In this document: piece by piece, positions 1 through 22,028 of the stretch
Layout: each line of letters begins with the position of its first letter
Position numbering within the stretch: position 1 is the first letter of the stretch
Virus record (IMG/VR): IMGVR_UViG_3300032308_001489
Location: 1 to 22,183 of that record
Strand: one strand, 5' to 3'
DNA from: a virus
Length of the DNA: 22,183 nucleotides
The notes under the pieces: model-generated
The model's input: the letters and a program-made list of their open reading frames with translations, nothing else
The model's database searches: none
What the model was told of the DNA's origin: nothing
Made by a program: the position numbers and the translations under genes

Positions 1-382
1 ATGAACCATTTTCTCCGTCTTCGGAGACCTCAATCCAAACCTCACGGTTGGGATACTTTGCTTTGATAGTGTCGTGAAGTTCATCAGACATCATCTCGCA
101 ACTTTTATAATCAAGACTTAGAACTGAACCTTGACCATTATACAACGTTTCAAGCCATCGCTTGAATTGGATGAATTCGATGTCCCTATCATTGTGTTGC
201 ACAGAGATCCACACCCTGAAATGAAAGATGTGGCGATGAGGATACCCCAAAAACGATACGTCATATTCGTCTCCTGTAGCTAGATTTGAATCTGTTAAAG
301 CTGCAGGATATTTATGTATACCTTCCTTGCGGAAAGTCACCCAGATCATTTTGTTTGGTCGAACATCTTGTCGAATAATCAT
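1..382 (-). CDS. QueD/6-pyruvoyl-tetrahydropterin-synthase-like protein (3' end cut by window)
   Basis: The first 127 residues are present; the rest lies beyond the window edge. The start is an ATG that shares ATGA with the stop of the upstream gene. His23 and an H49-R-H51 pair have the spacing of the zinc ligands of the PTPS/QueD T-fold family. They are followed by a strand (HFRVWISV) and a helix (DIEFIQFKRWLETLY) where the family has its conserved helix. The segment S94-C95-E96 and the strand with WIEVSED recall the family's TSE and V-x-E-x motifs. QueD makes 6-carboxytetrahydropterin on the 7-deazaguanine pathway, which would fit the transglycosylase gene at 4082-5638. The match is by motif only, and the usual GMVxDF signature is replaced by DIEF. 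Closely similar proteins are, from memory, usually annotated as hypothetical in marine T4-like phages. Confidence 0.5.
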   Translation of the reverse strand, partial: MIIRQDVRPNKMIWVTFRKEGIHKYPAALTDSNLATGDEYDVSFLGYPHRHIFHFRVWISVQHNDRDIEFIQFKRWLETLYNGQGSVLSLDYKSCEMMSDELHDTIKAKYPNREVWIEVSEDGENGS

Positions 383-597: not shown

Positions 598-962
598 CCT
601 CTCAGTGCCTCCATCATAACGATTTTACCTAGTGAATCACCGAGATCTTGATCTTCAGTAATTACATGCATGCTATTAAAATTGCGATCTTTGTTTCGAT
701 CATAACTACGAGTTTCTACCACATAGCCACCCGAGGCTTTGTAGATCTGAAGACGAAGACCGTCGCTGTCAAGGCGACTGCCCTCAACCGCTAATTGCGG
801 AACATCTTGTTCAATCTCGTCCTCTTTCATCAACCAGTTTCTGATACGCTGTCTAATTGTTAGTTTCACTTTTTGTTTCCTAATTTTACGAGCAGGTCTA
901 ATTGCTGTGACTTTAGCTTGATTAGCATAGGCCCCTGCTGAAGTTAATCCATAACCACTCAT
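594..962 (-). CDS. conserved phage hypothetical protein, 122 aa
   Basis: Function unknown. The N-terminal half is basic (ARKIRKQKVKLTIRQRIRNW, about residues 24-43) and could bind nucleic acid. The C-terminal half (LRLQIYKASGGYVVETRSYD, then NSMHVITEDQDLGDSLGKI) has a beta-strand pattern that I recall from small hypothetical proteins of T4-like cyanophages and pelagiphages. It is joined to both neighbours by ATGA overlaps, so it belongs to the same operon as the clamp and transglycosylase genes. Confidence 0.7.
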   Translation of the reverse strand: MSGYGLTSAGAYANQAKVTAIRPARKIRKQKVKLTIRQRIRNWLMKEDEIEQDVPQLAVEGSRLDSDGLRLQIYKASGGYVVETRSYDRNKDRNFNSMHVITEDQDLGDSLGKIVMMEALRG

Positions 963-1510
963 TTGATTATCTCATCTTTGCCATATTGATCCCAATCGGT
1001 AAAACGATCTCTACCCATTAGATCTCTGAGGTTATGGCACCATACCCCAGGATTAGTTGCTGAAAAATCTTTATCGTCTATCTTCAATGTAGCATTATAT
1101 CCTAATTGATTTATATAAGGTAATTTTACACTAATCTGCGGAATAAATCTACGATATTCTACTAACGGACTTTCCAAAAGACCCTCAGTTTCTCGAACAT
1201 CAAAATCTAAAGTGCACCAAAGATCTGCTTCCAAGCATGATTTGATCATGGTTTCCCAAGGAGTCCATCCTGCTACATCATTTACGCCGTTGGTCTGAAA
1301 ACTTTGATTAGCGCCGAAATAGATATGTTTGATATGTTTAGATGCGTCGAGATGTGAACGACTGTCTTTAACTATATCTAAGATAATTTCGGGATCATGG
1401 ACACCGACCACGAAAAGCGTAAGCATTCCGAAGGCAGGAGTGCGTTCAATTTCAGTGCCAACGAAAAATATTACATTATCTGCAACGCCCGTAGTATAAT
1501 CACGCTTCAT
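959..1510 (-). CDS. conserved phage hypothetical protein, 183 aa
   Basis: Function unknown. The sequence alternates strands and helices (TLFVVG, HIYFGANQSF, CTLDFDV, QISVKLPYI, NATLKIDD), suggesting an alpha/beta fold. The blocks FVGTEIERTPAFGM and TNPGVWCHNL seem familiar from marine T4-like phages, where they carry no function. I chose the ATG at 1510, because it has a GGAG ten bases upstream. The in-frame ATG at 1528 has only a weak site, and the GGAG would then lie inside its coding sequence. The start overlaps the stop of the 1500-2015 gene by 11 bases, and the stop forms ATGA with the next gene. Lying between the QueD-like and transglycosylase genes, it could belong to the same pathway, but nothing in the sequence proves it; the CxxxCxxC of radical-SAM QueE is absent. 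Confidence 0.75.
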   Translation of the reverse strand: MKRDYTTGVADNVIFFVGTEIERTPAFGMLTLFVVGVHDPEIILDIVKDSRSHLDASKHIKHIYFGANQSFQTNGVNDVAGWTPWETMIKSCLEADLWCTLDFDVRETEGLLESPLVEYRRFIPQISVKLPYINQLGYNATLKIDDKDFSATNPGVWCHNLRDLMGRDRFTDWDQYGKDEIIK

Positions 1511-2015
1511 TATCGTATGGCTCCACATTTTCTTCTAGCACAGCAGTATCCCCGTATCCGTTGGCATCTACAAGATCAATTTTTACAGGACCGAGGATAG
1601 CCACATGATCATCCTCTACTTCCCAATTATGATCACCATCGTAGATCCATGCTGTACCACAACGACCATCTTCATCTTCTTTCTCGTAACGAAGAATAGC
1701 TTCGATTTCAGCTTTTTCATCTTCAGTAAAACCGTCGTCGTAGGTATTACCTTCCATGTCCCAGCAACCGAATTGCACATAAACTGCGATAAGGTCGTCA
1801 AGATCGCAGCCCCATCCTACTTCAGGTCGACAATGTACACGATCTGTTTCAAATTTCCATACAGGTTCGTCTTCGGGACGGAAGCCGTAGCCCCAACGCC
1901 ATATTTCAGTCACATCAAATCCGCGAATGCGTCCATCGGGAAGTCGTTCGAAAACATCGACAAAATATTCTACTGATTTCTTTTCGAGGGGAGTAATTCT
2001 ATATAACTTTTCCAT
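1500..2015 (-). CDS. acidic conserved hypothetical protein, 171 aa
   Basis: I do not recognise a function. The protein is strongly acidic and rich in tryptophan (EIWRWGYGFRPEDEPVW, GWGCDLDDLIAVYVQFGCWD), with no signal peptide or membrane segment. The start ATG follows directly on the stop codon of the 2016-3020 gene (TAAATG), and the reading frame ends 11 bases inside the next gene, so translation is coupled on both sides. The acidic, W-rich composition resembles the two neighbouring hypotheticals and may reflect a small protein-binding or DNA-mimic role, but that is a guess. Confidence 0.7.
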   Translation of the reverse strand: MEKLYRITPLEKKSVEYFVDVFERLPDGRIRGFDVTEIWRWGYGFRPEDEPVWKFETDRVHCRPEVGWGCDLDDLIAVYVQFGCWDMEGNTYDDGFTEDEKAEIEAILRYEKEDEDGRCGTAWIYDGDHNWEVEDDHVAILGPVKIDLVDANGYGDTAVLEENVEPYDNEA

Positions 2016-4081: not shown

Positions 4082-5638
4082 TTATTCTGCTACAAGTTTA
4101 TCTAATTCCTCATCTTCACGTTCATCTTCGTAGGCTGCTTTATCTTCTTGACCTTCTTCGTAGAACAATGTATTAGCGATGCTCTTCACACCGCCACGTA
4201 ATCTAGCACCCTCTACACCGTTTAAGAAACCTAATGTAGTAGCAGTTTCGATTAATTCAAAGGCAGTATCTTTATCTACACAGGCAAACAACTCTTCCAC
4301 GAAGCTGTCAAAATACAATATATTCCTTGGAACCCAATCGGATATCTCGTCACTGTAATCGTTATCTTTGACCTTAGCACGATATGTACGCCAGTTCATT
4401 CTAGGCTTGTTTAACAGTTCAATATCCATTAATTGATTGGCACGTTGTACTGCTTTGATATGACATTCGACATTATGCCCCATCATTAGAGCATAGGCAA
4501 AACTATCCCAAGATGTTTTGCCTTCTTTACCGATCTTGTTTAACATTCCTGGAGCATAATGGCATATATCCGCGATCGTAAGTCTTCGACCAACTTCGGA
4601 CTCGAAAGGAAAAGGTATATCGTGCCGTCCGGAAAGACCCTTATTATCTGGGGCTTTGTCCATGATAACACTCCATCGCTTAGGGGTGTGTTGGGCGTTA
4701 GTGTATACCAATCCGTGAGCTGTTGCGATGAAAGGTGATGCGCAGTCAAAGGAAATTGTGAAGTTTTCATTTACGTGCTTTCTAATTTGTCGCTGAATGC
4801 TAGTTAGATAGCAACTCCAATCTAACTGTGCAGTACCTAAGAAGTGCATCCAGTCTTTGCCTTCTAACATACCGTCAAACTTCATAGTGATAAGACGCTT
4901 TAGGGTAACAGGCATTTTACACATATTAGCACCACCCATAGCCCAACCTTCTGCGGCTCTATCACCGTACTTGCTAGTATCGGAATATTCTTTTACACCT
5001 TGATACCATGCTTCTGCGGTATCCCAGTTAGAACCTTGTAGAACGTTTAACAGTTTTGTTCCACCGTTGGCAGCACCGATTCTATTTTCTATAAAATATT
5101 TGTTGTTGAACTGTGTCTTTTCTAAGCAGTCTTCAAAGGTCTTCAGTCCGGTCTTTGGACTATGAATATGATCGCAGGCCCATGTCGGAACGTCCAACAT
5201 CATCGACCAATCAGCTGTAACATCTAACCAAGTTAAAATCTTTTCACGAACTTTATTAGCTTCTGCGCCTTCAAAGTTTTGCCAGTCAAACTTGATAACA
5301 CCTTTACCAATCTGATATCCACCCGAATCGCCTAGGATCATAGTAGCACCACGATCACGTTGTTGGATCATTAGTTCTTGATCTAAACTCTTTTCGATAT
5401 CTAATTGTGCATGACCTGCTGAATACAGAGCATACTTGTAATATAAATAACCCTGTTCAGGATTAAGAAAGTTCATACCTTCGATACCGCGATCAAATTC
5501 TTTAGGAATACGATCGTTAGGAACAAATTCTTCTTTGCGTTGTTTATCTACATATGTAGAATAAAAAGAACTGATAGCAGGCAAGTATACCGCATAGTCC
5601 TTTTGTAATGGTGTTAAATTAACTGGTTGTTTGCTCAT
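4082..5638 (-). CDS. dpdA: TGT-superfamily transglycosylase, DpdA-like (7-deazaguanine insertion into DNA)
   Basis: The 518-residue protein carries the tRNA-guanine transglycosylase core in order: ILGDSGGYQI (Asp104, matching LTDSGGFQ), SMMLDVPTW (Asp149), NVLQGSNW (199-205, matching the IQG loop), WAMGGANM (GG 235-236), MHFLGTA (264-270, matching LMGVG) and ISFDCASPF (Asp298, matching the nucleophile in MFDC). The C-x-C-x2-C zinc site of tRNA enzymes is absent. The protein is also much longer than a TGT (about 375), with an extra N-terminal region and about 200 C-terminal residues. DpdA enzymes with these features swap guanine for 7-deazaguanines in phage DNA to evade restriction. A QueD-like gene lies in the same operon. 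The start overlaps the upstream gene by 20 bases and has GAGAG before it. Whether the substrate is DNA or tRNA is inferred, not shown. Confidence 0.75.
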   Translation of the reverse strand: MSKQPVNLTPLQKDYAVYLPAISSFYSTYVDKQRKEEFVPNDRIPKEFDRGIEGMNFLNPEQGYLYYKYALYSAGHAQLDIEKSLDQELMIQQRDRGATMILGDSGGYQIGKGVIKFDWQNFEGAEANKVREKILTWLDVTADWSMMLDVPTWACDHIHSPKTGLKTFEDCLEKTQFNNKYFIENRIGAANGGTKLLNVLQGSNWDTAEAWYQGVKEYSDTSKYGDRAAEGWAMGGANMCKMPVTLKRLITMKFDGMLEGKDWMHFLGTAQLDWSCYLTSIQRQIRKHVNENFTISFDCASPFIATAHGLVYTNAQHTPKRWSVIMDKAPDNKGLSGRHDIPFPFESEVGRRLTIADICHYAPGMLNKIGKEGKTSWDSFAYALMMGHNVECHIKAVQRANQLMDIELLNKPRMNWRTYRAKVKDNDYSDEISDWVPRNILYFDSFVEELFACVDKDTAFELIETATTLGFLNGVEGARLRGGVKSIANTLFYEEGQEDKAAYEDEREDEELDKLVAE

Positions 5639-5993
5639 ATTCTCTCGCTAGTTTAGCAGTAACGTCTAACTGCTGTCGTGCCTTATTTAGGTTCTCTAAT
5701 GCTATTTTAACAGCCTGATTGTCTTTTGCCAATGATTCCCAAGCCAATTCTTCATCACGCTTCTTACATGCCCAGTCAAGTAAAGACTCTGCTTCACCGT
5801 TTAGACCAATACTGGAATAATCCATATTAAGTGTAATCCAATTATTGCCGTCGAATACTTCTATGTTCTGGTTGGTGGTATTGAATCTCATATTACCAAC
5901 ACCTTGGGCGCCGGAATAGTTGTTTATGTAAGTACTGGAATTTCCACCAGAAACAGACATATAACGTCCAGAAGCGTGAATGCTTTTAATCAT
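5619..5993 (-). CDS. putative virion-associated protein, 124 aa
   Basis: The N-terminal half (IKSIHASGRYMSVSGGNSS, then GVGNMRFNTTNQNIEVFDGN and NWITL) follows a pattern, G-x-x-R-[YF]-N-T-x-x-x-x-x-E-V-[YF]-D-G-x-x-W, that is common in tail-fibre and other virion proteins of marine phages. The C-terminal half (about 65-124) is a charged helix, probably a coiled coil. It sits between the clamp gene (TAATG junction) and the transglycosylase (20-base overlap), which is an odd place for a structural protein. The role is inferred from the repeat-like pattern only. Confidence 0.65.
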   Translation of the reverse strand: MIKSIHASGRYMSVSGGNSSTYINNYSGAQGVGNMRFNTTNQNIEVFDGNNWITLNMDYSSIGLNGEAESLLDWACKKRDEELAWESLAKDNQAVKIALENLNKARQQLDVTAKLAREYEQTTS

Positions 5994-6730
5994 TAAGCTG
6001 CCTGTGCTGGAATGATGTATTTGTAAGTAGCAAGACCGCTGTCTAGGGTGATCTGAATAGCACCTTCGTTACTCAACGACATCTTAGTATTGTTTACATC
6101 GGCAATCTTAAGGATACTCAAGATTGGCAGCACCGGCCAAGTCCAACCGCGATCTAGTTTGCCTGCTACATTCTGAGCAAATACAAACTCACCGCCGTGT
6201 GTTGAAGCATCACCAAAGATGAACTTCAAGTTACCACCATCTGTCTTTGCTAAGAATGTTGGATGTTCATTGTTAGCACCTGCTTGGAAGTTGAAACGCT
6301 GAACAGCGGCCACACTTGGTTCGATCTCAACGTCCCACTTAACACCACGGAACTTAACAGTTTTCATCTTTTCGTTGATGATTTCCTGATTCATGAAACG
6401 ATAATCATTGCGGAAATCTCCATCCTTGTTTTCAAAGTGGATACCAACAGGAATAGTTTCACCGTTACGTTCTGCTGACGTAATAGTGATCTTAGCGTCA
6501 TCCTTGTATTCTGATCCATCTAATAGATACTTTAGTTTATTCAACTGAGGCATACCAAATGTACCGATCATATCTGGGTACGGTGCGCTAGTTTCTGCGG
6601 TCATGATCACTGATCGATCATCAGCCATAGAAAAGATTTCAGTTTTTTCTTTGCTGCCTGTTACTTTAACTGTGGTAAGGAAGCCTAGGTTTTGTGTGTG
6701 ACTTACGATGTCTTGTAAAATGTCTTTCAT
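5993..6730 (-). CDS. gp45: DNA polymerase sliding clamp (T4 gp45-like)
   Basis: The 245 residues match the phage clamp subunit that forms a ring on DNA, tethers gp43 to the template and, in T4, also activates late transcription with gp33 and gp55. Recognisable parts are the N-terminal ILQDIVSHTQNLGFLTTVKV, the loop SAPYPDMIGTFGMPQLNKLK and the C-terminal strand GLATYKYIIPA. T4 gp45 is 228 residues, so the length is normal. It follows gp43 closely and has its own sigma70-like promoter in the 62-base gap. A GGAG lies nine bases upstream of the ATG. No gp44/gp62 clamp-loader genes are in this window. Confidence 0.93.
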   Translation of the reverse strand: MKDILQDIVSHTQNLGFLTTVKVTGSKEKTEIFSMADDRSVIMTAETSAPYPDMIGTFGMPQLNKLKYLLDGSEYKDDAKITITSAERNGETIPVGIHFENKDGDFRNDYRFMNQEIINEKMKTVKFRGVKWDVEIEPSVAAVQRFNFQAGANNEHPTFLAKTDGGNLKFIFGDASTHGGEFVFAQNVAGKLDRGWTWPVLPILSILKIADVNNTKMSLSNEGAIQITLDSGLATYKYIIPAQAA

Positions 6731-6755: not shown

Positions 6756-6784
6756 ATTATATTTAGATCGTGAATGAAAATCAA
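6756..6784 (-). promoter_or_regulatory. sigma70-like promoter for the clamp gene
   Basis: In the short gap before the clamp gene, the minus strand reads TTGATT (6779-6784), a 17-base spacer, then a perfect TATAAT (6756-6761). The expected start site is about 20 bases upstream of the clamp ATG. A late-promoter-like CTAAATATA (6758-6766) overlaps the -10 box, so the clamp could also be made late. It suits a gene needed early in infection by host RNA polymerase. Confidence 0.6.
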
Positions 6785-6792
6785 CCTTGAAA

Positions 6793-7014
6793 TCATTCAA
6801 AATCAAACAATTTGTTAAAATTGTTGTCACTGCGAGTTGAACTGATGTCCCATTCCAAAACACCAATCAAGTTTTCTAATTTTTCGTCGATGACTGTTGT
6901 TTCCATTTCGCCGTCATCGAATGGTAAATCTTTAAACCATTGCGGTAAACGTAATTCGTCTACAGGATAGGCTACCGAAACATAGCCCATAGGATTATCT
7001 TTGATTACAAACAA
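6793..7014 (-). CDS. gp43: DNA polymerase gp43 C-terminal fragment (shifted frame)
   Basis: This frame continues the polymerase after its main frame stops at 6995. NPMGYVSVAYPVDELRLPQW is the typical tail of T4-like marine gp43, and the last residues, NNFNKLFDFE, match the C-terminal clamp-binding peptide (RB69 gp43 ends LFDMFDF). The two frames overlap only between an in-frame TGA (7021-7023) here and the TAA at 6995-6997. A residue-by-residue reading (VCNQR then DNPMGY) fits loss of two bases in an AGAG run at about 6997-7000. The fragment could start at the ATG at 6990 as a separate 65-residue protein. Alternatives are a true split gene, a ribosomal frameshift, or a sequencing or assembly error. 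Confidence 0.8.
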   Translation of the reverse strand: MFVIKDNPMGYVSVAYPVDELRLPQWFKDLPFDDGEMETTVIDEKLENLIGVLEWDISSTRSDNNFNKLFDFE

Positions 7015-9460
7015 TGACTTTCATGCCGTCGACAATATTCATCGAGTATTTGTCGTCGAACATTCTTTTGAGCGTATTCCAATTAAGGCTTGCTCTAACA
7101 TGACCAGGCATATTAGCCTTGCCAGCTTTCTTCTCTTTTGCGGCATATTCTGTAATGTTGTTGGCACGTTTAGGTGATCCTTTCTCCCAACCGGGTCTAG
7201 TTTTAAATTCAGTTCTAAAATCAGTGATATACTGTAATATCCCTTCTCGTGGATAGCCAGTTAGAACTCGAGTTAAGACTTCTGAGAGGAAGTCTTGAAT
7301 AACGACGGGTGTGTCAGAACGCTTGAGGTCGAGTCCCATGGCTTTGATTTTTCCTGGGTTTCCGTCAACATCTGCTCGTTTTCCTTCTTTGTCGTAGTAG
7401 AGAACTGCGTATCGCTTCTTGGTGATGAATAATCCTTTGGAAGCAACAATCTCGCGACCTGCCTTGATGACTTCTCCTCGGGTCTTGGGGCAATGAAAGG
7501 CGTCCTGCATGAATTTAACAAACGTGCCATTTACTTCTCCTCCTATGGTATCATAAAGTTCAACAACATTTTCTCTAGTCCAAGGTATTGATCCTTTTTC
7601 TATATCTTTTTTAAGAGTTGAATATGCCGAAAAATAACAACTGTCTGTATCACCGTAGATTACAGCCTTACCTACGTGATCATATTCTCCGGTAATAATT
7701 TCGTTTACTTTACTTGCCATATGTTTGGCAACCTGCCTGCCGGTAAGAGTTGTGGACTGTCCAATTCTATTATCAAAGAATCTACAGCCAGGATTAAGAA
7801 TAGCACCGTATAAACTATTCAAGTTAATCTTTTTAACTAACTGACGCTTGTCCCAATATTCTTCTTCTATGTCGTTGCCGGCCTGGATACATTCTTTAAG
7901 CTTGGCCTGCATTTCTTTACGTTCTTTATACCAGCGGGCTAAAAGCCCAGGAATGATTCCCTCTTTCTCATAGGTAAAGATAGTACCATTGGCACTTAAC
8001 ATCCACGGCTGATTGCTTTCAAATATTAAGTCATAGATCTGTGCTGCCGAGAGCGTATCACTGCCTCCGTCCTCCCAGTCAATGGTAATCTCACGACCTA
8101 CTTCACGATTCATTACTGCGGTGTATTCTAATGAACCAAACACACCTTCCCATGCTGCGGCAAATGATTTACCTTTGCCCATTTCGGCAGCGATATAATC
8201 TTTAGTACCATCTTGACGTAGCTGTCCTACGATAGTTTCTGGACCCATGTTAAGCGCACGAATCGCACTTGGATACAGTGAGTTAATATCTAATGAACCG
8301 ATCCATTCGTGGATACCTTTCTTGGGATAGGCAACATATGCTCCAGCAGCCTGTGTGTCGCCTTGTTCTTCCATCTTTTTACGATTAGGAACGATCATAC
8401 CACGACGATGTGCTTCGTTAATAATAGCCTGCTCAGTCACAGCCACAGCACCCATAGTTGTCTGTAGTAGAACTGTATTTTCGTGAGCAATTTTATTAGC
8501 TAGATCTAAGAATTTAAGTTTTTTGTCTAGCTTATCGAGTAGCGAACAGTCTTGTCTGTTGTATTCAATAAACTTGCGGAAATCGTTGTTATAGAGTTGA
8601 TCTAGCGTACCTTCGTAGACTGTTTTATTCTCACCGATTTCCATCTCACCGATAGCATCTAATCGATATGTGTGACGTTCCTCGTAGGTATATTTTCTAT
8701 ATAGTTCAAGATAATCCATATGAACGCGACCAATTAGATCATAGGTCACAGCAGTTTTGCCAAACTTTTCATATTCTCGTTTTTTAGGATAGCAGTCCCA
8801 TAAACAGAATCTACGTGTATCTTCTTTATTCAATACTTTGATAACACGATTTACAGTATACGGAATATCGAAACCTTCTGAGTTCCAACCACTTAGTACA
8901 TCGGCATCTTGAATAAGATCCAAGAATGTATCTAACATGTCTGCTTCGTTGTCAAACAGCATGGTATTTGGGAATTCCTCTACAGCCTTTTTGGCTTCTG
9001 CCATGTTCATAGTTTTGGGAGGAATAGCAAGACACACAAGAGTATCTAGCCACTGCAAATGTACAGCGATAGCAGTAATTGGCATAAACGCATCATCTGG
9101 CGAAGCATATCCACGCTCTGGATCGAAGTCTACTTCAATATCGAAAAACGCTGTGTTTAGTTTTGGAGCATCTACGTTTAAGTAGTGATCTTCCAGTGTC
9201 CTATAGATAGGATTGATATCTGATTCATAGAGTTTTTTATTACTATGAATCGCTAATTCTTTGCGAAGTTCCTTAACATTTTTACAGGTAACACGGCTCA
9301 GCGGCTCGCCTTTAATTGATTGATACTTACCCTTGGGATCGTAGTAATAAAAGATATGGCGAGCAGGATAATCTTTATAATGCCTTTCGCCTTTGTCATT
9401 GCGTTCAACGACACGAATCATGTCGTCGTCGCGATCATAGAATGCGTCAACGTAACTCAT
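6995..9460 (-). CDS. gp43: DNA polymerase gp43, family B (main part)
   Basis: This is the replicative polymerase with 3'-5' proofreading. Numbered from the ATG at 9460, the exonuclease motifs are FFDIEVD (Asp107, Glu109), GWNSEGFD (Asp198) and YNRQD (Tyr300, Asp304). The polymerase motifs are A, DINSLYPSAI (Asp391); B, KKINLNSLYG (about 543-552); and C, YGDTDS (Asp604, Asp606). KKRY follows as in T4-like enzymes. I chose 9460 because GGAG precedes it and the family starts MSYVDAFYDR; an in-frame TTG at 9490 would run through the leader hairpin. The frame ends early at 6995, and the thumb end and clamp-binding tail lie in another frame (6793-7014). Without that tail the enzyme should lack clamp-dependent processivity, so either the fragment is supplied or the shift is artificial. 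Confidence 0.95.
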   Translation of the reverse strand: MSYVDAFYDRDDDMIRVVERNDKGERHYKDYPARHIFYYYDPKGKYQSIKGEPLSRVTCKNVKELRKELAIHSNKKLYESDINPIYRTLEDHYLNVDAPKLNTAFFDIEVDFDPERGYASPDDAFMPITAIAVHLQWLDTLVCLAIPPKTMNMAEAKKAVEEFPNTMLFDNEADMLDTFLDLIQDADVLSGWNSEGFDIPYTVNRVIKVLNKEDTRRFCLWDCYPKKREYEKFGKTAVTYDLIGRVHMDYLELYRKYTYEERHTYRLDAIGEMEIGENKTVYEGTLDQLYNNDFRKFIEYNRQDCSLLDKLDKKLKFLDLANKIAHENTVLLQTTMGAVAVTEQAIINEAHRRGMIVPNRKKMEEQGDTQAAGAYVAYPKKGIHEWIGSLDINSLYPSAIRALNMGPETIVGQLRQDGTKDYIAAEMGKGKSFAAAWEGVFGSLEYTAVMNREVGREITIDWEDGGSDTLSAAQIYDLIFESNQPWMLSANGTIFTYEKEGIIPGLLARWYKERKEMQAKLKECIQAGNDIEEEYWDKRQLVKKINLNSLYGAILNPGCRFFDNRIGQSTTLTGRQVAKHMASKVNEIITGEYDHVGKAVIYGDTDSCYFSAYSTLKKDIEKGSIPWTRENVVELYDTIGGEVNGTFVKFMQDAFHCPKTRGEVIKAGREIVASKGLFITKKRYAVLYYDKEGKRADVDGNPGKIKAMGLDLKRSDTPVVIQDFLSEVLTRVLTGYPREGILQYITDFRTEFKTRPGWEKGSPKRANNITEYAAKEKKAGKANMPGHVRASLNWNTLKRMFDDKYSMNIVDGMKVIVCNQR

Positions 9461-9471
9461 TTTTCTCCATA

Positions 9472-9489
9472 TGCGACTTAGGGCTCGCA
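9472..9489 (-). promoter_or_regulatory. candidate gp43 translational operator hairpin
   Basis: The minus-strand RNA folds as UGCGA, loop GCCCUAAG, UCGCA: five base pairs with an eight-base loop. It ends three bases before the GGAG of gp43. T4 gp43 represses its own translation by binding a hairpin of this same architecture (five-pair stem, eight-base loop) next to its ribosome-binding site. The loop sequence here differs from T4's AAUAACUC, as expected for a distant phage. Recognition by this gp43 is inferred. Confidence 0.5.
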
Positions 9490-9518
9490 AATACCTATTG
9501 TGCGGCTTATGGCCTCGC
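9472..9518 (-). repeat. imperfect tandem repeat in the gp43 leader
   Basis: Two near-identical units lie on the minus strand between the membrane-protein gene and gp43: GCGAGGCCATAAGCCGCA (9501-9518) and GCGAGCCCTAAGTCGCA (9472-9488), 12 bases apart. Both can form small stem-loops that present CC(A)UAAG. The downstream unit is the hairpin listed separately. A 15-codon open frame (9478-9525, ATG to TAA) runs across both units and could be a leader peptide, but it has no supporting family. Confidence 0.55.
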
Positions 9519-12395: not shown

Positions 12396-12824
12396 TTATT
12401 TTTTCTTTGATTTACCAGATTTCATATTGGCGCACCAGTGATACATTTTAGCACGTTCGCCTGATGAATTCTTGGCACGTTTACGTAGATCTGTTACAGA
12501 ACCGTTACAGCTAGCTCCAGATCGTTTTACACGGCCCGGACGACTTTTGCCTTTGACTTTACCGTCTGCGAAATTTTCAGTGAGCTTATTTAATTTTCTA
12601 TAATAATCTCCACCGATGGTCATTTTTGCCTGTTTATACAGCATCATTAATTGTGATGCTTGGGACTTTACATAGGAAGTTTGGGGCATAGTAGACATTT
12701 TATCAATGGCTAACTTCATTGCACCCACACCAGAATCAGCGTCTATAGCCAGTCTATCTTTGATGATTCTTTTCACATCATCGTCAGAAATTTTTAATTC
12801 GATGATAAACTCTTTTGCTTTCAT
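12396..12824 (-). CDS. basic phage protein with capsid-targeting-like N-terminus, 142 aa
   Basis: The protein starts MKAKEFIIE, close to the T4 internal-protein signal MKTYQEFIAE, with the I-x-E expected at a gp21 cleavage site. A helical middle (about 14-82) leads to a very basic C-terminal module, GKVKGKSRPGRVKRSGASC (88-106), then GERAKMYHWCANMKSGKSKK (122-141), with Cys106 and Cys131. This module recurs, alone or fused, in many marine T4-like phages. Its high positive charge suggests binding to packaged DNA. The start is ATGA with the HAD-GH19 gene. Confidence 0.75.
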   Translation of the reverse strand: MKAKEFIIELKISDDDVKRIIKDRLAIDADSGVGAMKLAIDKMSTMPQTSYVKSQASQLMMLYKQAKMTIGGDYYRKLNKLTENFADGKVKGKSRPGRVKRSGASCNGSVTDLRKRAKNSSGERAKMYHWCANMKSGKSKKK

Positions 12825-14260
12825 TTCATTACCATTTTAAAATCTTGAAATTTTTCTTTACGATCTTCTAATCCCTTCAACCCTGGATTAATTGGTTTGG
12901 TAGCCGATTTGGTATTGTAAAAATCATCCACCCTAGGCTGTACACGATTCTGCCAAAACCATATAGCTACCTTAGCAGCGATTTCTGGTTTTTCAACTAG
13001 TTCGGGTTTTTCTTCCAACGGTAAGCCCAATGCCTCACCGGCTTTCTTGTAATTGTATCTGCCAGTAAGTTGAATGTAACCCCTGCCTTTGTAACGAGCA
13101 CCGTCGCCGACTTTGTTGTTACCTAAACTTTTAGCCTTTGAGTTTACTTGGACTGTCTTTCCTGTTTTTTTATCTTTAACAAACTTAGGTTCGTATTTTT
13201 TAAAATCTAATGAACCGCCATACTCAACCATTGACTTGAAGTTATGCGACTCATGTGCGGTCTGTGCTAGGAACTGTGCTAGTTCTTCGCCCTTAATACC
13301 TGCTTCGATGGCTGCCTTAGTTAAAAACTTTTCGTGAGGACTATTAGTTACCGATTGTTTAGGAGTGGCATCTTTGGCAATTTTAATCATGCCTTTTTCA
13401 AAATTACTTTTTTCGTCGTCAGCTTGAGAAACTGCGACAGTTTTTTCTTTATCGTCTTGATTATTTTTGTAAGCATCATAGGCAGCAGGTCCACCTGCGG
13501 CTACAGCAGCACCTAATGCAGCACCACCTACCCAATCTTTCCATCCTTCACCTACACCACCGTCACCGCCACTGCTATCGCCGCTGTAACCAACATAATA
13601 TCCATAACCACCGTAAGGCCCTGGCCCATAAGCAGCCCAGCGAGGTTTACGTTTGCGTTTCTTTTCTGATACTATGCCTTCTCGCATATATTCCGATGCT
13701 TCGCCGTCTAAACTAACATGCCAAGCATAAAATCTAGTGCCGGGATGATCTTTCTTTAATTCGATAAATGTATGTAAATTAGGTTTAGCATCGTCATACA
13801 TTATCGCTTTATTATAATCGTCTTTGTCTAATAAAGATTTGATTATTTGTTTTTTGCGTTCTTCTGTTGTTCCGCCTTTGATATTTCCTGCACGATAGAC
13901 ATGTACTTTATCCATGTCAACTCCATACTTACGGAATGTATCTAGAAATAATTCTTTGTCATCAAAATCTGAACGAGCAGTAACCATTACTACTTTATTA
14001 CCTGTGGCGATATCTTTTTTAAGCTGATTCATCATAGGAATAATTGGTCGAGATTTTTCAAAGAACTCTCTAGCGTTTCGGAAGTCTTCAAAATCAAACG
14101 ATTCGCCGGGTTTTAGTTTATAGTGCGTAAAGTCGTGGCTATTAAGACTGTTAACAACTTCGCCGTCTTTGATCACGTGAACCTTAGTCTGTGTATTGAC
14201 TAGTGTGTCGTCTATGTCAAAGACAACTAATTTTTTGGGTTCAAATTCACGTGCTCTCAT
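12821..14260 (-). CDS. HAD phosphatase fused to GH19 chitinase/lysozyme-like domain, 479 aa
   Basis: Residues 11-195 form a HAD-family phosphatase: LVVFDIDDTL (Asp15, Asp17), VMVTARSD (Thr94) and MYDDAKPN (Asp156, Asp157). Next come a basic patch (KKRKRKPRW, 200-208), a Gly/Tyr-rich linker (211-238) and a hydrophobic GGAALGAAVAAGGPAA stretch (245-260). Residues about 305-479 match GH19 glycosidases, which cleave peptidoglycan or chitin: AQTAHESHNFKSM with likely catalytic Glu337, then YKGRGYIQLTGRYNYKKAG (390-408). The N-terminus MRAREFEPK resembles the MKAKEF starts of its neighbours. Phage GH19 domains serve as lysins or virion muralytic enzymes. Fusion to a HAD domain suggests a packaged, injected enzyme rather than an ordinary endolysin. 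Junctions are ATGA on both sides. Confidence 0.85.
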   Translation of the reverse strand: MRAREFEPKKLVVFDIDDTLVNTQTKVHVIKDGEVVNSLNSHDFTHYKLKPGESFDFEDFRNAREFFEKSRPIIPMMNQLKKDIATGNKVVMVTARSDFDDKELFLDTFRKYGVDMDKVHVYRAGNIKGGTTEERKKQIIKSLLDKDDYNKAIMYDDAKPNLHTFIELKKDHPGTRFYAWHVSLDGEASEYMREGIVSEKKRKRKPRWAAYGPGPYGGYGYYVGYSGDSSGGDGGVGEGWKDWVGGAALGAAVAAGGPAAYDAYKNNQDDKEKTVAVSQADDEKSNFEKGMIKIAKDATPKQSVTNSPHEKFLTKAAIEAGIKGEELAQFLAQTAHESHNFKSMVEYGGSLDFKKYEPKFVKDKKTGKTVQVNSKAKSLGNNKVGDGARYKGRGYIQLTGRYNYKKAGEALGLPLEEKPELVEKPEIAAKVAIWFWQNRVQPRVDDFYNTKSATKPINPGLKGLEDRKEKFQDFKMVMK

Positions 14261-15191: not shown

Positions 15192-15577
15192 TATTTTGTT
15201 GCCGGTTCGCCAGTGACATAGACTTCCCACTTTTTACCAGTCATGGCAGATTTTTTAGCAGCCCAGTCCTTTAGTCTATAGTATTCTCTACGCTCTTCTG
15301 GACTGTCGGCATAAGCACCATAAGGTCCGGGAAATACTTTCCACTTTTTACCGTTAATATAGATAGCAAAGTTGTTACCGGGTTCAGTGTTACCTTCATC
15401 CCAATCTTCTGGATCTCTTACTCTTTCGTCCATAGGAATACGATCTTTCTTATGTTTAACATCGCCTTGCTTTTCGGCACGTTTTAAATCCTTGTGTGCG
15501 CCAGCACCTGCGGTTTTTTGATTTTTAGCAACAAAGTTTCTAGGTTTGCTCGCTGGTATAAAATCTTTGGCTTTCAT
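15191..15577 (-). CDS. basic protein with capsid-targeting-like N-terminus, 128 aa
   Basis: It begins MKAKDFIPASKPRNFVAKNQ and continues KTAGAGAHKDLKRAEKQGDV, then KHKKD. This Lys-rich module (about 10-45) is shared by many proteins of marine T4-like phages. A second part (70-125) reads NFAIYINGKKWKVFPGPYGA, then RREYYRLKDWAAKKSAMTGK and KWEVYVTGEPA, a small beta-type domain. The role is unknown; the positive charge suggests contact with DNA in the capsid. It is ATGA-linked to the upstream nucleotidyltransferase and TAATG-linked to the next gene. Confidence 0.75.
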   Translation of the reverse strand: MKAKDFIPASKPRNFVAKNQKTAGAGAHKDLKRAEKQGDVKHKKDRIPMDERVRDPEDWDEGNTEPGNNFAIYINGKKWKVFPGPYGAYADSPEERREYYRLKDWAAKKSAMTGKKWEVYVTGEPATK

Positions 15578-16776
15578 GATGATCTCTTTTGTTTAGGACC
15601 TTTTCGGTATTTCCATTTTTTATCTGTAGAACACCAATATCGACCATAATTGCTTTCTTTAACATTTTCTGTTTTTTTAAACAGCTGATATCTTTTTATA
15701 AATTCTTTTTCTTTACTACTTAATTCTCGTCCTGTTTTTATTTTTGCTAGTATAAATCGATAATATGCCTCGTCATCGGCAAGTTCAATTAATGTATCTA
15801 TAGATTCGTGCATGCCAAAATTGCCCTGCATACGTACTTGTTCAATGTCGTTACTGTCTGCGAATCTGTCTACTTTTAAAGCTAATTTAAAATCTAATAT
15901 AGTTAGACCTTTAACATCGAATGTGGTTGTTTTAACAGTTACTTCTGCAACATCCTGCGTTACCTCAGCGAAATGATCCATTTCTTCACTGATCTTGTTA
16001 ATGTATGAAACAAAGTCCTCTGCGTGCCTATGATCTTTAGCCACATATTTGGCCTGTAAGATTCTATGATCTAACATTTCCCAGTCTGGAAGATATTTAC
16101 TTTTTAGATCATTTAGTTTATCATTGGGAATAAGTTTTTCTTCTATATCAACTTTTCTAAATTTTTCTTCTTCCACAGATTCATTTTTCTTTTTCTTAGA
16201 AGCTTTAGCTAATTCTTTTTCAATATGTGGAGCCATGTATTCTGCTACTAGATCAAAATAAGATTTACCTGCTATTTCAGTATCTGCGTCTATGCCAGCA
16301 GCCTTAGAAAAAGCTGCGCGATCCCCTGCACGAACAGCATCTCTCAATGATGTCGCCGAGCTTAGTCTAGGTGTTGGTTTTTGTTCAACAGTGGAGAAAT
16401 TATAAAATCCGTGGGCCTTGCCTTCGACTCCGTTGTAATCATTAATAGTCTTGATTACCCAATCTTCGTCAGTATATACAACAAGTTTAGAGTCTGGATG
16501 TTTTTTATAAATCTCACTGGCCATAGTCAACCAACTAGTGGTGCTTAATAAATGTCCTTCTAGCCCCGGATAAACTGTTTTCATCGCTTCGATTTTGATA
16601 TCGAACGGTAACGGATCTTTAGGGCCTTGTGTTGAAGCGTTGGTGCCTACATACCAGTTACCTCTGCTGCTCATCATTTCCCAAGCAGCTTTATGTCCCT
16701 GATGCGGAGGATTGAAGCGACCAAAAATGATAGCTACTTCGTCGCTCGGGGCTTCAAACAGTTCATTTAGTTTCAT
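15574..16776 (-). CDS. nucleotidyltransferase fused to a pterin-carbinolamine-dehydratase-like domain, 400 aa
   Basis: Residues 12-190 form a cytidylyltransferase/NMN-adenylyltransferase-like domain: IIFGRFNPPHQGHKAAW holds the HxGH signature (His25, His28), and RLSSATSLRDAVRAG (137-151) matches the ISSTxxR nucleotide-binding motif. After a KKKKNESVEEEK linker (194-205), residues about 214-305 follow the pterin-4a-carbinolamine dehydratase pattern: LPDWEMLDHRILQAKYVAKD, AEDFVSYINKISEEMDHFAE, and VTVKTTTFDVKGLTILDFKL, where the enzyme has HH, TH and GLT-x-x-D; one of the paired His is Asp here. A basic tail ends the protein. The start MKLNELFEAP resembles a capsid-targeting sequence with an L-F-E cut. 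NAD or pterin metabolism is possible; the substrate is unknown. Confidence 0.8.
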   Translation of the reverse strand: MKLNELFEAPSDEVAIIFGRFNPPHQGHKAAWEMMSSRGNWYVGTNASTQGPKDPLPFDIKIEAMKTVYPGLEGHLLSTTSWLTMASEIYKKHPDSKLVVYTDEDWVIKTINDYNGVEGKAHGFYNFSTVEQKPTPRLSSATSLRDAVRAGDRAAFSKAAGIDADTEIAGKSYFDLVAEYMAPHIEKELAKASKKKKNESVEEEKFRKVDIEEKLIPNDKLNDLKSKYLPDWEMLDHRILQAKYVAKDHRHAEDFVSYINKISEEMDHFAEVTQDVAEVTVKTTTFDVKGLTILDFKLALKVDRFADSNDIEQVRMQGNFGMHESIDTLIELADDEAYYRFILAKIKTGRELSSKEKEFIKRYQLFKKTENVKESNYGRYWCSTDKKWKYRKGPKQKRSS

Positions 16777-18605: not shown

Positions 18606-19220
18606 TTATTTATCGGAAATTACAAAGGTATATATGGTGCCCAGTGCTTCTGGTTTTTTTAGTTTTAGCATCAGTAACATCTGTTCGTCTTCGACATACA
18701 TGTATCTGCGGTCCCAATTCCAGTGGGTTTTATGAAACCAGTTTTTAACTGTATCTGTTATGTGTACTTTTGGTTTCTGTTTATCGACCCAATCCATATA
18801 TTTTTCTTTTTCTTCTCTAGAACTGATTCTATGGGGCTGTAGAAATACCTTGTACTTATAGATATCGTGAGGCAATTTTTTAGTTAGTATGGTATGTCCA
18901 TTGTCCAGAGACTCTAGATCAGGGTGAGGGGCGAACGAGTGTCTGAGATAGTCTTTAAACTTTTCGTACAAATTATTAAAGATTTTCTCATCGTTGGTGT
19001 AGATATCTATTATATTAGATTCTATTCGTTTGGCATAGGATTTTGTATCCAGCAGAGAAAGTTCTCTAGCGATAGCTTCTATTTCTTCACTTTTAGATGA
19101 AATAGACGACCCTGGTAATCCTAATAATCTCAAAGCAGTTACACCCTTAATCCTAAAACTAAGTTTGTAATTCCAAAGATTATAAAATTTCCGAGTTGTT
19201 AGTTTGGTCTTGTTCGACAT
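18606..19220 (-). CDS. conserved phage hypothetical protein, 204 aa
   Basis: Function unknown. The N-terminal part ([20 protein letters not shown]) and the C-terminal block (WNWDRRYMYVEDEQMLLMLK, then TIYTFVISDK) look conserved among T4-like marine phages by memory. Basic and aromatic residues are frequent, and no catalytic motif is seen. The ATG at 19220 lies 41 bases inside the end of the ClpA gene, out of frame; a strong GGAGG nine bases upstream, within the ClpA coding sequence, decides this start. Confidence 0.75.
   Translation of the reverse strand: MSNKTKLTTRKFYNLWNYKLSFRIKGVTALRLLGLPGSSISSKSEEIEAIARELSLLDTKSYAKRIESNIIDIYTNDEKIFNNLYEKFKDYLRHSFAPHPDLESLDNGHTILTKKLPHDIYKYKVFLQPHRISSREEKEKYMDWVDKQKPKVHITDTVKNWFHKTHWNWDRRYMYVEDEQMLLMLKLKKPEALGTIYTFVISDK
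18607..18614 (-). promoter_or_regulatory. late-promoter-like GATAAATA
   Basis: The motif overlaps the last codons of the 18606-19220 gene (GAT AAA TAA) and ends four bases before the next ATG. A start site at T4 spacing would fall at the start codon. Because the motif also encodes Asp-Lys-stop, coincidence is harder to exclude here than at 18228. Confidence 0.4.
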
Positions 19221-21540
19221 TGTTTTCTGCCTCCGCAGCTTTAGCGGCTGCTTTTCTCGCTTTTCGCTCCTCTTTAGTTTCGGGTCTAGGCATTTCTGTT
19301 ATCGTAAAATCTAATTGATCATCGATGACGCTAACAGTTACTTTACCACCGTCTTTAAGATCTCCAAATAGTATGCGTCTGCTCAAAGGACTTTTAATCT
19401 TGTTATCGATTAATCTAGCCAAAGGTCTAGCCCCCATCTTCTTATCATAGCCTTTTTCGGCTAACCAGTTTTTGGCCTGCTTGTCTAAAACTATTTCTAC
19501 AAATTTATCTTTGATCTGAGAATTAAGATCTGCGATAAATTTATCAACGATCTGTTGAACCACTTCCATGCTAAGACCACGGAATTTAATAATAGAATCT
19601 AAACGATTGCGGAATTCTGGCGTAAAGAATTTTTTAACTGCCTTATCGTCTTCCCCTTCTTTTTCCAAATCGCCGAAACCGATAGTATTCTTTTCGTTAT
19701 CCGCAGCACCTAAGTTTGACGTCATGATAAGAATACAGTTGCGGCCATCTGCTTGTTTACCGTTCGATCCTGTGACAAATCCGTTGTCCATGAACTGTAA
19801 TAGAATATTAGTAACATCAGAGTGTGCTTTTTCAATTTCATCTAACAATAACACACAGTTAGGATGTTCTTGCAGTTTAGTGATTAGTTGTCCAGCATCT
19901 TCTTCAAAGCCAACATAGCCGGGAGGAGCACCGATTAATTTAGCCACCGAATGCTTTTCTTGATATTCACTCATATCGAATCTAATCAATCCAAGGCCCA
20001 TCTTTTCTGCTAGTTGTTTAGCAGTTTCAGTTTTACCTGTACCAGTGGGTCCGAGGAACAAGAAGCAACCTACTGGTTTATTCGGCAACTTCATTCCGGC
20101 CTGTGCTACAAAGATTTTATCTAATAGATTATCTACAGCAGTATCTTGACCGTAGACCGCTGACTTAAGATTCTTTTCTAGATTAGATAGATTTTTTGAC
20201 TCTTTTTCGGCTACTGTTTCTACAGGCATATTAATCATCTTTGATAATTCAAAGGTTACCTGTTCGATATCTACGATCTGTGTAATACCTTCCTCAGCCG
20301 GATCATCTTTGATTTTATATCTAGCTGCCGCACAGTCAATAATATCTATTGCTTTGTCCGGTAACTTTTTATCCGGCATGTATTTGATCGATAACTTCAC
20401 TGCCTGTTCGATAGCAGCATCAGTGATCTTGACATTATGATGTCCTTCGTAGTATTTCTTAATGCCTTTAATAATCTTAACTGTGAGTTCTTGTGTAGGC
20501 TCATCGATAGTAACACGTTGGAATCGACGCATTAACGCACGATCCTTTTCAAAGTGTTTGCGATATTCTTCCCAAGTGGTAGAAGCTATTAGCTTGATGA
20601 TACCTTTGGTTAGGATTGGTTTAAGGATATTAGCAAGATCGTTCGAGCTTTGATTTGCGGCTCCGGCTCCCTGCATCATGTGTGCTTCGTCGATGAAAAG
20701 AATAATTTTACCTTTCTTTTCTAAAGCACTGAGAACAGCTTTGATCCTTTCTTCAAAGTCACCGCGATATTTGCTGCCTGCGATAAGGCTGCTAATATCC
20801 AGTGTATAGACACTGTGATCTTGTATGAATTTAGGAACTTTCTTTTCGAAGATCTTACGAGCTAGTCCTTCTGCGATAGCGGTCTTTCCCACACCAGGAT
20901 CACCGACCATTAATACGTTACACTTGTTACGTCGAGCAAGTATCAACTGAATTTTTTCTAATTCTTCATCTCTTCCGATCACAGGATCGATTTTACGCTG
21001 TTTGGCTTGTAAGCTGAGATTAGTACAGAATTGATTGATGATTCTATCGAGCTGTGACGGATTTGGCATTGTCGGCAACGGAGCACCCTCTTCTTCTTCT
21101 TGTTGTATAATGTTGTCTTGGAAATACTTGATAAATTTTTCTTTGGTTACTCCGCCTTTAGTAAGGAAATAGAAACCATGGCTATTTTTTTCTGATAGAG
21201 TGCTGATGATTATATCAGCTACTTCCATTCTCTGTCGACCACTGAATAATACCTGTGTAAAACAGCGATTCAATACACGCTCGACAGAATTAGTTTTTTT
21301 AGGTTTAATTTCAGCATCTTCTGTAATGATGTCTGACATATTATTTTTAAGGTAGTGCTCTATGTTACTTTTAATAAAAGATAGGTCAGCACCGTAGTTT
21401 TCCAACACTTCGATACCCTCGTCATTACAGACGATACCATAGATTAGATGTTCTATAGTGATGTATTGATGTTTGAATGCTTTGGCTACTTGTACAGCAT
21501 GATCAAATATTATTTGTAAATTTTGACTAGGTTCGATCAT
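19180..21540 (-). CDS. clpA: ClpA-type AAA+ unfoldase, 786 aa
   Basis: An N-terminal Clp repeat domain (1-145: [12 protein letters not shown]) precedes two AAA+ modules. D1 has Walker A GDPGVGKT (213-220) and Walker B LFIDEA (281-286). D2 has Walker A GPTGTGKT (497-504), Walker [10 protein letters not shown] (564-572) and the sensor region [11 protein letters not shown] (638-648). There is no ClpB middle coiled coil. Ile620-Gly621-Phe622 sits where ClpA carries its ClpP-docking IGL loop, so the protein may feed substrates to host ClpP. The pore loop KYRGDFE is present. The length is close to E. coli ClpA (758). An acidic and Ala/Lys-rich tail (about 745-786) is extra. It is ATGA-linked to def; no phage clpP is in the window. 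Confidence 0.93.
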
Positions 21541-22028
21541 TTTGTTTTCCTTAGTTTTTTCATAGCTAATTGTAACTTCATCTGACTCACTCTGTCAACA
21601 AAACAGATTCCTTTGAGATGATCAAATTCGTGTTGAAACACTCTAGATATCAGTCCGTCGAGTTCGGCAGTATGTATATTACCTTTTGAATCTTGATATT
21701 CGGCTAGAATTTTTTTTGGTCTTTTAACAGACAACCACAGATCTGGATAACTTAAACATCCCTCTCTGAAAAGTTCAGTTTCTTCTCCGCAACTTAAAAT
21801 TTTAGGATTGAACACAGCCATAGGCTTAAATCCCGGTATTCCTTTGCTGCCCATGACAAAAACATTTTTTGTCAGATTGATCTGATTAGCAGCTAGACCG
21901 ATTCCGTTGTTTTTTAACATAAAATCGATCATCTCTTCTTCCAGCGATTCCGGATCGTTGTCTGTACCAAAAATCCAATCAGTGCTGGTTTCTAATAATG
22001 TGTCGTGAGGTCCTAGTTTAAATTCCAT
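21537..22028 (-). CDS. def: peptide deformylase
   Basis: All three family motifs are present: GIGLAANQ (42-49), EGCLSYP (89-95, metal ligand Cys91) and QHEFDHLKG (132-140, His133 and His137 as ligands, Glu134 catalytic). The enzyme removes the formyl group from the N-terminal Met of new proteins. Phage deformylases are known from marine cyanophages, where they are thought to act on host or photosystem proteins. At 163 residues it is near the bacterial length (about 168) and has a basic C-terminal helix. Its start overlaps the end of dnaJ by 11 bases and its stop forms ATGA with clpA. Confidence 0.95.
   Translation of the reverse strand: MEFKLGPHDTLLETSTDWIFGTDNDPESLEEEMIDFMLKNNGIGLAANQINLTKNVFVMGSKGIPGFKPMAVFNPKILSCGEETELFREGCLSYPDLWLSVKRPKKILAEYQDSKGNIHTAELDGLISRVFQHEFDHLKGICFVDRVSQMKLQLAMKKLRKTK

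Follow-up and report, generated by a model that had tools for sequence, protein, structure and literature searches.

The window is a 22,183-nt stretch of viral DNA (positions 1 to 22,183 of IMG/VR record IMGVR_UViG_3300032308_001489). The ORF under study lies on its minus strand, starts with ATG, and encodes 518 aa. It is surrounded by the following features, all read from the same strand.

2..382, minus strand: w2, an unnamed DpdA-associated protein, cut by the window end
959..1528, minus strand: w959, an unnamed DpdA-associated protein of 189 aa
4082..5638, minus strand: predicted DpdA2-like DNA-guanine transglycosylase, assigned from its AlphaFold2 model, TGT fold, hhalign comparison to DpdA2, and conservation
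5619..5993, minus strand: small ORF of 124 aa between the clamp and dpdA, overlapping the dpdA start by 20 bases
5993..6730, minus strand: sliding clamp (gp45/PCNA-like); the PAC2 homolog in the same relative place is annotated as proliferating cell nuclear antigen
6756..6784, minus strand: promoter-like site, 26 bases ahead of the start of the clamp gene, with 10/12 consensus matches; the number of such sites is not above that in shuffled sequence
6995..9490, minus strand: family B DNA polymerase (gp43-like; PF00136, E 1e-35; phrog_262, E 8e-186)

ORF 4082-5638 lies downstream of both the clamp and the polymerase, which agrees with the earlier note's placement of the gene near gp43. That note also described the gene as co-transcribed with the clamp. 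The shared strand stands, and since we found no minus-strand terminator-like site between clamp and dpdA, co-transcription is plausible. The small ORF between them resembles PHROGs of unknown function weakly and is kept in many relatives.

The protein carries the tRNA-guanine transglycosylase (TGT) catalytic motifs, all in TGT order: D104 in GDSGGYQ, D149 in MMLDVP, Q201-G202 in VLQGS, G235-G236 in WAMGGAN, and D298 in SFDCASP. The core first read from the sequence (D104, GG235-236, and D298 in FDC) was therefore present in full, with D149 and Q201-G202 in addition. In an alignment of 65 family representatives, D104, D149, and D298 are each invariant (65/65), as are H265 and G268. Conservation is lower at G236 (62/65), Q201 (54/65), and G235 (51/65). 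The description of this core as intact holds for the protein itself; with G235 kept in just 51 representatives, the GG pair is not strictly a family feature. The TGT zinc motif, CxCxxC, occurs neither in the protein nor in any of the 65 representatives, in line with the earlier claim that the tRNA-enzyme zinc site is missing, and the estimate of about 140 extra residues was close to the 143 by which the protein exceeds the 375 aa E. coli TGT. We considered a metal site at C359/H388/H393 and do not claim it: the His pair is near-invariant, yet missing in Vibrio phage 2.275.O, and C359 is variable.

A catalytically dead TGT paralog serving as a DNA-binding accessory protein would be compatible with the replacement of Q201 by S in 11/65 representatives and with the unfixed G235. 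However, all three catalytic or pocket Asp positions, H265, and G268 never vary, and nearby que genes are kept over great divergence. We consider this explanation extremely improbable.

AlphaFold2 produced a model of the protein (pLDDT 88.5, pTM 0.88, 62 sequences) with a TGT-type (beta/alpha)8 barrel. When the model was compared to the PDB using Foldseek, TGTs occupied ranks 1-20 (E 1.5e-8 to 1e-3), and they also led the results of a second structure aligner (Z 18.4, rmsd 4.5 over 305 residues). The fold is common to bacterial and eukaryotic tRNA-guanine transglycosylases (PDB 2ash, 2bbf, 7nq4; Z about 18), whose motifs DSGGFQ, FDE, QG, GG, and FDC have counterparts here, and the catalytic Asp pair D102/D280 (Zymomonas numbering) corresponds to D104 and D298. 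Unlike the tRNA enzymes, the protein combines the missing CxCxxC and the added length with a lack of any match to PF01702 at E ≤ 1. PF01702 is not diagnostic against a DpdA assignment, as it gave no match in any of 22 phage records, those of 9g DpdA and nt-1 DpdA2 included.

Profile comparison narrowed the placement. The family profile aligned with that of DpdA2 at 96% probability by hhalign (E 3.4e-9), with D104, D149, and D298 matched to Asp residues of DpdA2, while six unrelated control families scored 0.1–0.3%. A single TGT scored weakly (16.5%), and 9g-type DpdA showed no profile-level similarity (0.2%). Among the viral models in BFVD, nt-1 DpdA2 matched our model with an E of 7.6e-9. Together, the modeled structure and the profiles place the protein in the TGT superfamily, as the earlier note had proposed. 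The family shares with DpdA2 of Vibrio phage nt-1 (YP_008125322; Hutinet et al. 2019, PMC6884629) the TGT fold, an identical order of the DSGG, D, and ISYD/ISFD motifs, the missing zinc motif, and linkage to folE. It differs in that BLAST finds neither from the other and that nt-1 DpdA2 has H where most of the family has Q201. The nt-1 sequence also matches phrog_10773. The product of ORF 4082-5638 does not, so we place it beside DpdA2, as a sister, and not within it; the relative in Vibrio phage 2.275.O is the sole family match to that PHROG, and a weak one (E 0.13). The "DpdA type" named in the note can thus be refined to a sister of nt-1 DpdA2, distinct from the 9g enzyme. Compared with DpdA (DpdA1) of Enterobacteria phage 9g, which is 317 aa long, the present protein is much longer, but both are TGT-superfamily genes found beside a clamp and que genes, and in 9g, as in these loci, dpdA adjoins the clamp.

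Further subfamilies, DpdA3 and DpdA4, were reportedly described by Cui et al. in 2023 (NAR) along with a predicted CDG decarboxylase (DpdL), and part of the present family may already have been named within DpdA3/DpdA4. Campylobacter phage CP220, which we take to be a DpdA3 host, was rejected as a DpdA3 reference: its ORFs matched neither profile, known 9g DpdA gave no match either, and DpdA3 could not be identified among those ORFs.

Searches of Pfam, PHROGs, NCBIfam, and PDB sequences (phmmer/hmmsearch) gave nothing for the protein. The 13 matching GenBank phage records are all labelled "hypothetical protein", which bears out the earlier remark that many relatives are not annotated as DpdA. 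They come from 11 PA5oct-like Pseudomonas phages (43% identity), Vibrio phage 2.275.O (28%), and Sinorhizobium phage Phosso (31%). At least 593 stretches in IMG/VR encode relatives; this number and the Z of 18.4 between the model and TGTs mean that the resemblance is not due to chance. The patterns used found no relative in 84,980 cellular genomes, and the PA5oct-like and Vibrio homologs, each used as a single query in viral searches, gave no pattern matches.

The gene neighbourhood was examined in 46 non-redundant loci (74 before redundancy removal), each with at least 9 kb downstream. A clamp lies upstream of the dpdA homolog in 40/46. Downstream of the homolog, on the same strand, are folE (34/46) and queE (40/46), with one or the other in 44/46. 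Across the 74 loci, every match to the clamp, w959, the linked glycosyltransferase (GT), folE, or queE is on the strand of dpdA, including 62 FolE and 68 QueE matches. The C.HH motif is present in 87/88 FolE matches and the C...C motif in 69/70 QueE matches. In the PA5oct-like phage PAC2, the order is polymerase, clamp, dpdA homolog, glycosyltransferase, phosphoribosyltransferase, QueE. A phosphoribosyltransferase-domain gene is found near folE and queE in 34/46 loci (L018:17196-17693, L082:23946-24380) and could act in purine or deazaguanine salvage. Loci L003 and L004, whose proteins are 93% identical to ours, carry the entire cassette. In an alignment with L004, the window stops some 0.2 kb short of the GT frame and roughly 1.4 kb short of that of folE, which explains why it shows neither gene.

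The most complete set is in Vibrio phage 2.275.O, where the dpdA homolog (28% identical) is followed by QueF, YhhQ, QueC, and FolE, with QueD further on and a QueE-like gene also in the que cluster. YhhQ was found in this phage only, as was QueF above the cut-off; a sub-cut-off QueF match falls inside nt-1 folE. In this phage, an amidoligase-like gene (L083:16741-17853) also comes immediately behind the dpdA homolog, and a glutamine-amidotransferase-like protein is encoded within the que cluster (L083:20387-21001). Phosso and L103 have no FolE or QueE within their flanks; Phosso has FolE and QueD elsewhere. The earlier note suggested a search of the full genome for folE, queD, queE, and queC. 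Among the relatives, beside the common folE and queE, queD was found in 6/21 IMG/VR contigs and in the named phages, and queC in 0/21 of these contigs, which may be fragments; queC was found only in Vibrio phage 2.275.O and nt-1. From these counts, the phage-encoded 7-deazaguanine pathway looks incomplete.

A rival reading is a phage TGT acting on tRNA of the host or of the phage (queuosine or preQ1 type), a modification that folE and queE would boost. tRNA modification is the ancestral activity of TGTs, the fold and catalytic residues are compatible with such an enzyme, and the authors of a Menderavirus genome paper describe relatives as tRNA enzymes (PMC9025141). However, 65/65 representatives lack the zinc motif that tRNA TGTs carry, the nearest profile is that of DpdA2, whose phage carries 7-deazaguanines in its DNA (PMC6884629), the gene is placed with the clamp and polymerase, and we found no phage tRNA gene in the window. 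We regard a tRNA substrate as improbable.

We conclude, with a probability of about 0.87, that ORF 4082-5638 encodes a DpdA-type phage DNA-guanine transglycosylase belonging to a large, unannotated sister family of DpdA2. What the analysis shows is the fold, the catalytic residues, the relatedness to DpdA2, the missing zinc motif, and the gene linkage, and all of these support this reading. The DpdA role in particular is supported by the linkage to the clamp, folE, and queE and by the whole preQ0 set in Vibrio phage 2.275.O. The enzyme very probably exchanges guanine in the virus's own DNA for a 7-deazaguanine; that DNA is the substrate we infer from the DpdA2 relation, the zinc motif loss, and the clamp and polymerase linkage. 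In phage 9g, the DNA carries dG+; modification has been proven for 9g and CAjan, dpdA is required for it in CAjan, and 7-deazaguanines shield phage DNA from restriction enzymes (PMC6884629). The earlier claim that the gene product modifies phage DNA against restriction is strongly supported by gene linkage as far as a DNA-modifying role is concerned, while the inserted base is uncertain in a family that usually lacks queC.

If the enzyme works as TGTs do, D298 would be the nucleophile that attacks C1' of a deoxyguanosine in the phage DNA and sets guanine free, with D104 assisting as acid/base. A free 7-deazaguanine in the TGT pocket would then be inserted, with D149, Q201-G202, and the G236 region predicted to bind the base from their TGT counterparts. 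The position of dpdA right after the clamp fits modification during or just after replication, and the modified DNA would be expected to resist restriction.

FolE, QueD, and QueE together yield 7-carboxy-7-deazaguanine (CDG), which QueC turns into preQ0 (PMC13329287). The precursor may therefore be CDG made by FolE and QueE of the phage together with a QueD of phage or host origin. Because queC was not found in the contigs and the step from CDG to preQ0 needs QueC, either host QueC would finish preQ0 or CDG would be inserted, as such or after decarboxylation. Vibrio phage 2.275.O presumably makes preQ0 and preQ1 itself.

The three other linked genes bear on this choice. The GT and w2 are each found in 42/46 non-redundant loci and w959 in 41/46. 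The GT belongs to a GT4-like family (L018:14695-15789, L221:7757-8785, L102:4734-5894) linked to both DpdA subfamilies, with an EX7E-type motif (ETLGISWYE in L018), and it may decorate the inserted base. Among 14 dpdA2 loci, 9 have the GT and 7 have w2, and most GT-bearing loci have w2 next to the GT and to either dpdA or dpdA2. All three genes are present in Acidovorax phage ACP17, where the order is QueD, FolE, w959 homolog, dpdA2, GT, w2, QueE; the w959 homolog is directly upstream of dpdA2, and the GT overlaps the dpdA2 end by 4 bases. No queC is annotated in the 12 kb surrounding this cassette. Phage nt-1, unlike most phages of the present family, has queC; neither the GT nor w2 turned up in the nt-1 regions covered or near dpdA2 in two further nt-1-like loci with short flanks. 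Most of the 21 IMG/VR contigs tested show no thymidylate-synthase-type gene, nor does ACP17, so a GT acting on hydroxymethylpyrimidines of the thymidylate-synthase family appears unlikely in those phages.

The absence of queC from most phages and the presence of the GT, w2, and w959 beside true DpdA2 as well suggest that the base used by most family phages is not plain preQ0 and may be glycosylated. As a sub-case of the main reading, the enzyme may insert a non-preQ0 base (CDG or decarboxylated 7-deazaguanine) that the GT4-like enzyme then glycosylates and that w959 and w2 act upon as well. The retention of folE and queE where queC is missing, the frequency of the three linked genes, their recurrence beside dpdA2, and the scarcity of thymidylate-synthase-type genes argue for it. 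On the other hand, host QueC could complete preQ0, the contigs are fragments, and the GT acceptor is putative. Pfam GT scores are below the cut-off except in X1, whose homolog matches PF00534 at 8e-12. We hold this sub-case only tentatively. Its stronger form, in which T4-like and jumbo phages carry a QueC-free 7-deazaguanine (CDG or 7-deazaguanine) glycosylated by the GT4-like enzyme, with w959 and w2 as pathway enzymes, is rather unlikely. If true, it would mean a glycosylated 7-deazaguanine DNA base and two new enzymes of its pathway. The conservation of the GT, w2, and w959 beside two DpdA subfamilies hints at steps not yet accounted for and may signal a new DNA base.

Neither w959 nor w2 is clearly related to a known enzyme. 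The w959 AlphaFold2 model has a mean pLDDT of 80.8 and a fairly confident core, and w959 gave no Pfam match, no PDB sequence match, and no significant fold match. Its core is weakly QueE-like, without the QueE cysteine cluster; comparison with QueE structures gave a Z of about 6 over about 130 residues, below the noise line, so this modeled likeness is suggestive only. The conserved motifs of w2 are GIHKYPAA, PHRH, RDIEF, SCEM, and SEDGENG, the first four of which are reminiscent of QueD/PTPS. Profile comparison does not confirm a QueD relationship (hhalign 3.6%), and ACP17 carries both QueD and w2.

If the main reading is right, phages that have already been isolated should have modified DNA. 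A large DpdA subfamily without annotation, represented by at least 593 IMG/VR loci and by Pseudomonas phages PA5oct, Paride, and Callisto, would join the known guanine-modifying phages. Two published accounts of PA5oct-like phages contain nothing on DNA modification.

Three other minus-strand regions of the window were recorded. At 15574-16776, a nucleotidyltransferase-like domain (PF01467, just under the cut-off) is fused to a pterin-4a-carbinolamine dehydratase (PF01329, E 2.5e-16). The 479-aa ORF at 12821-14260 joins a polynucleotide-kinase/HAD-like N-terminus to a GH19 chitinase/endolysin C-terminus. A ClpA/ClpC-like double AAA ATPase (19180-21540) overlaps the end of a peptide deformylase gene (21537-22028).
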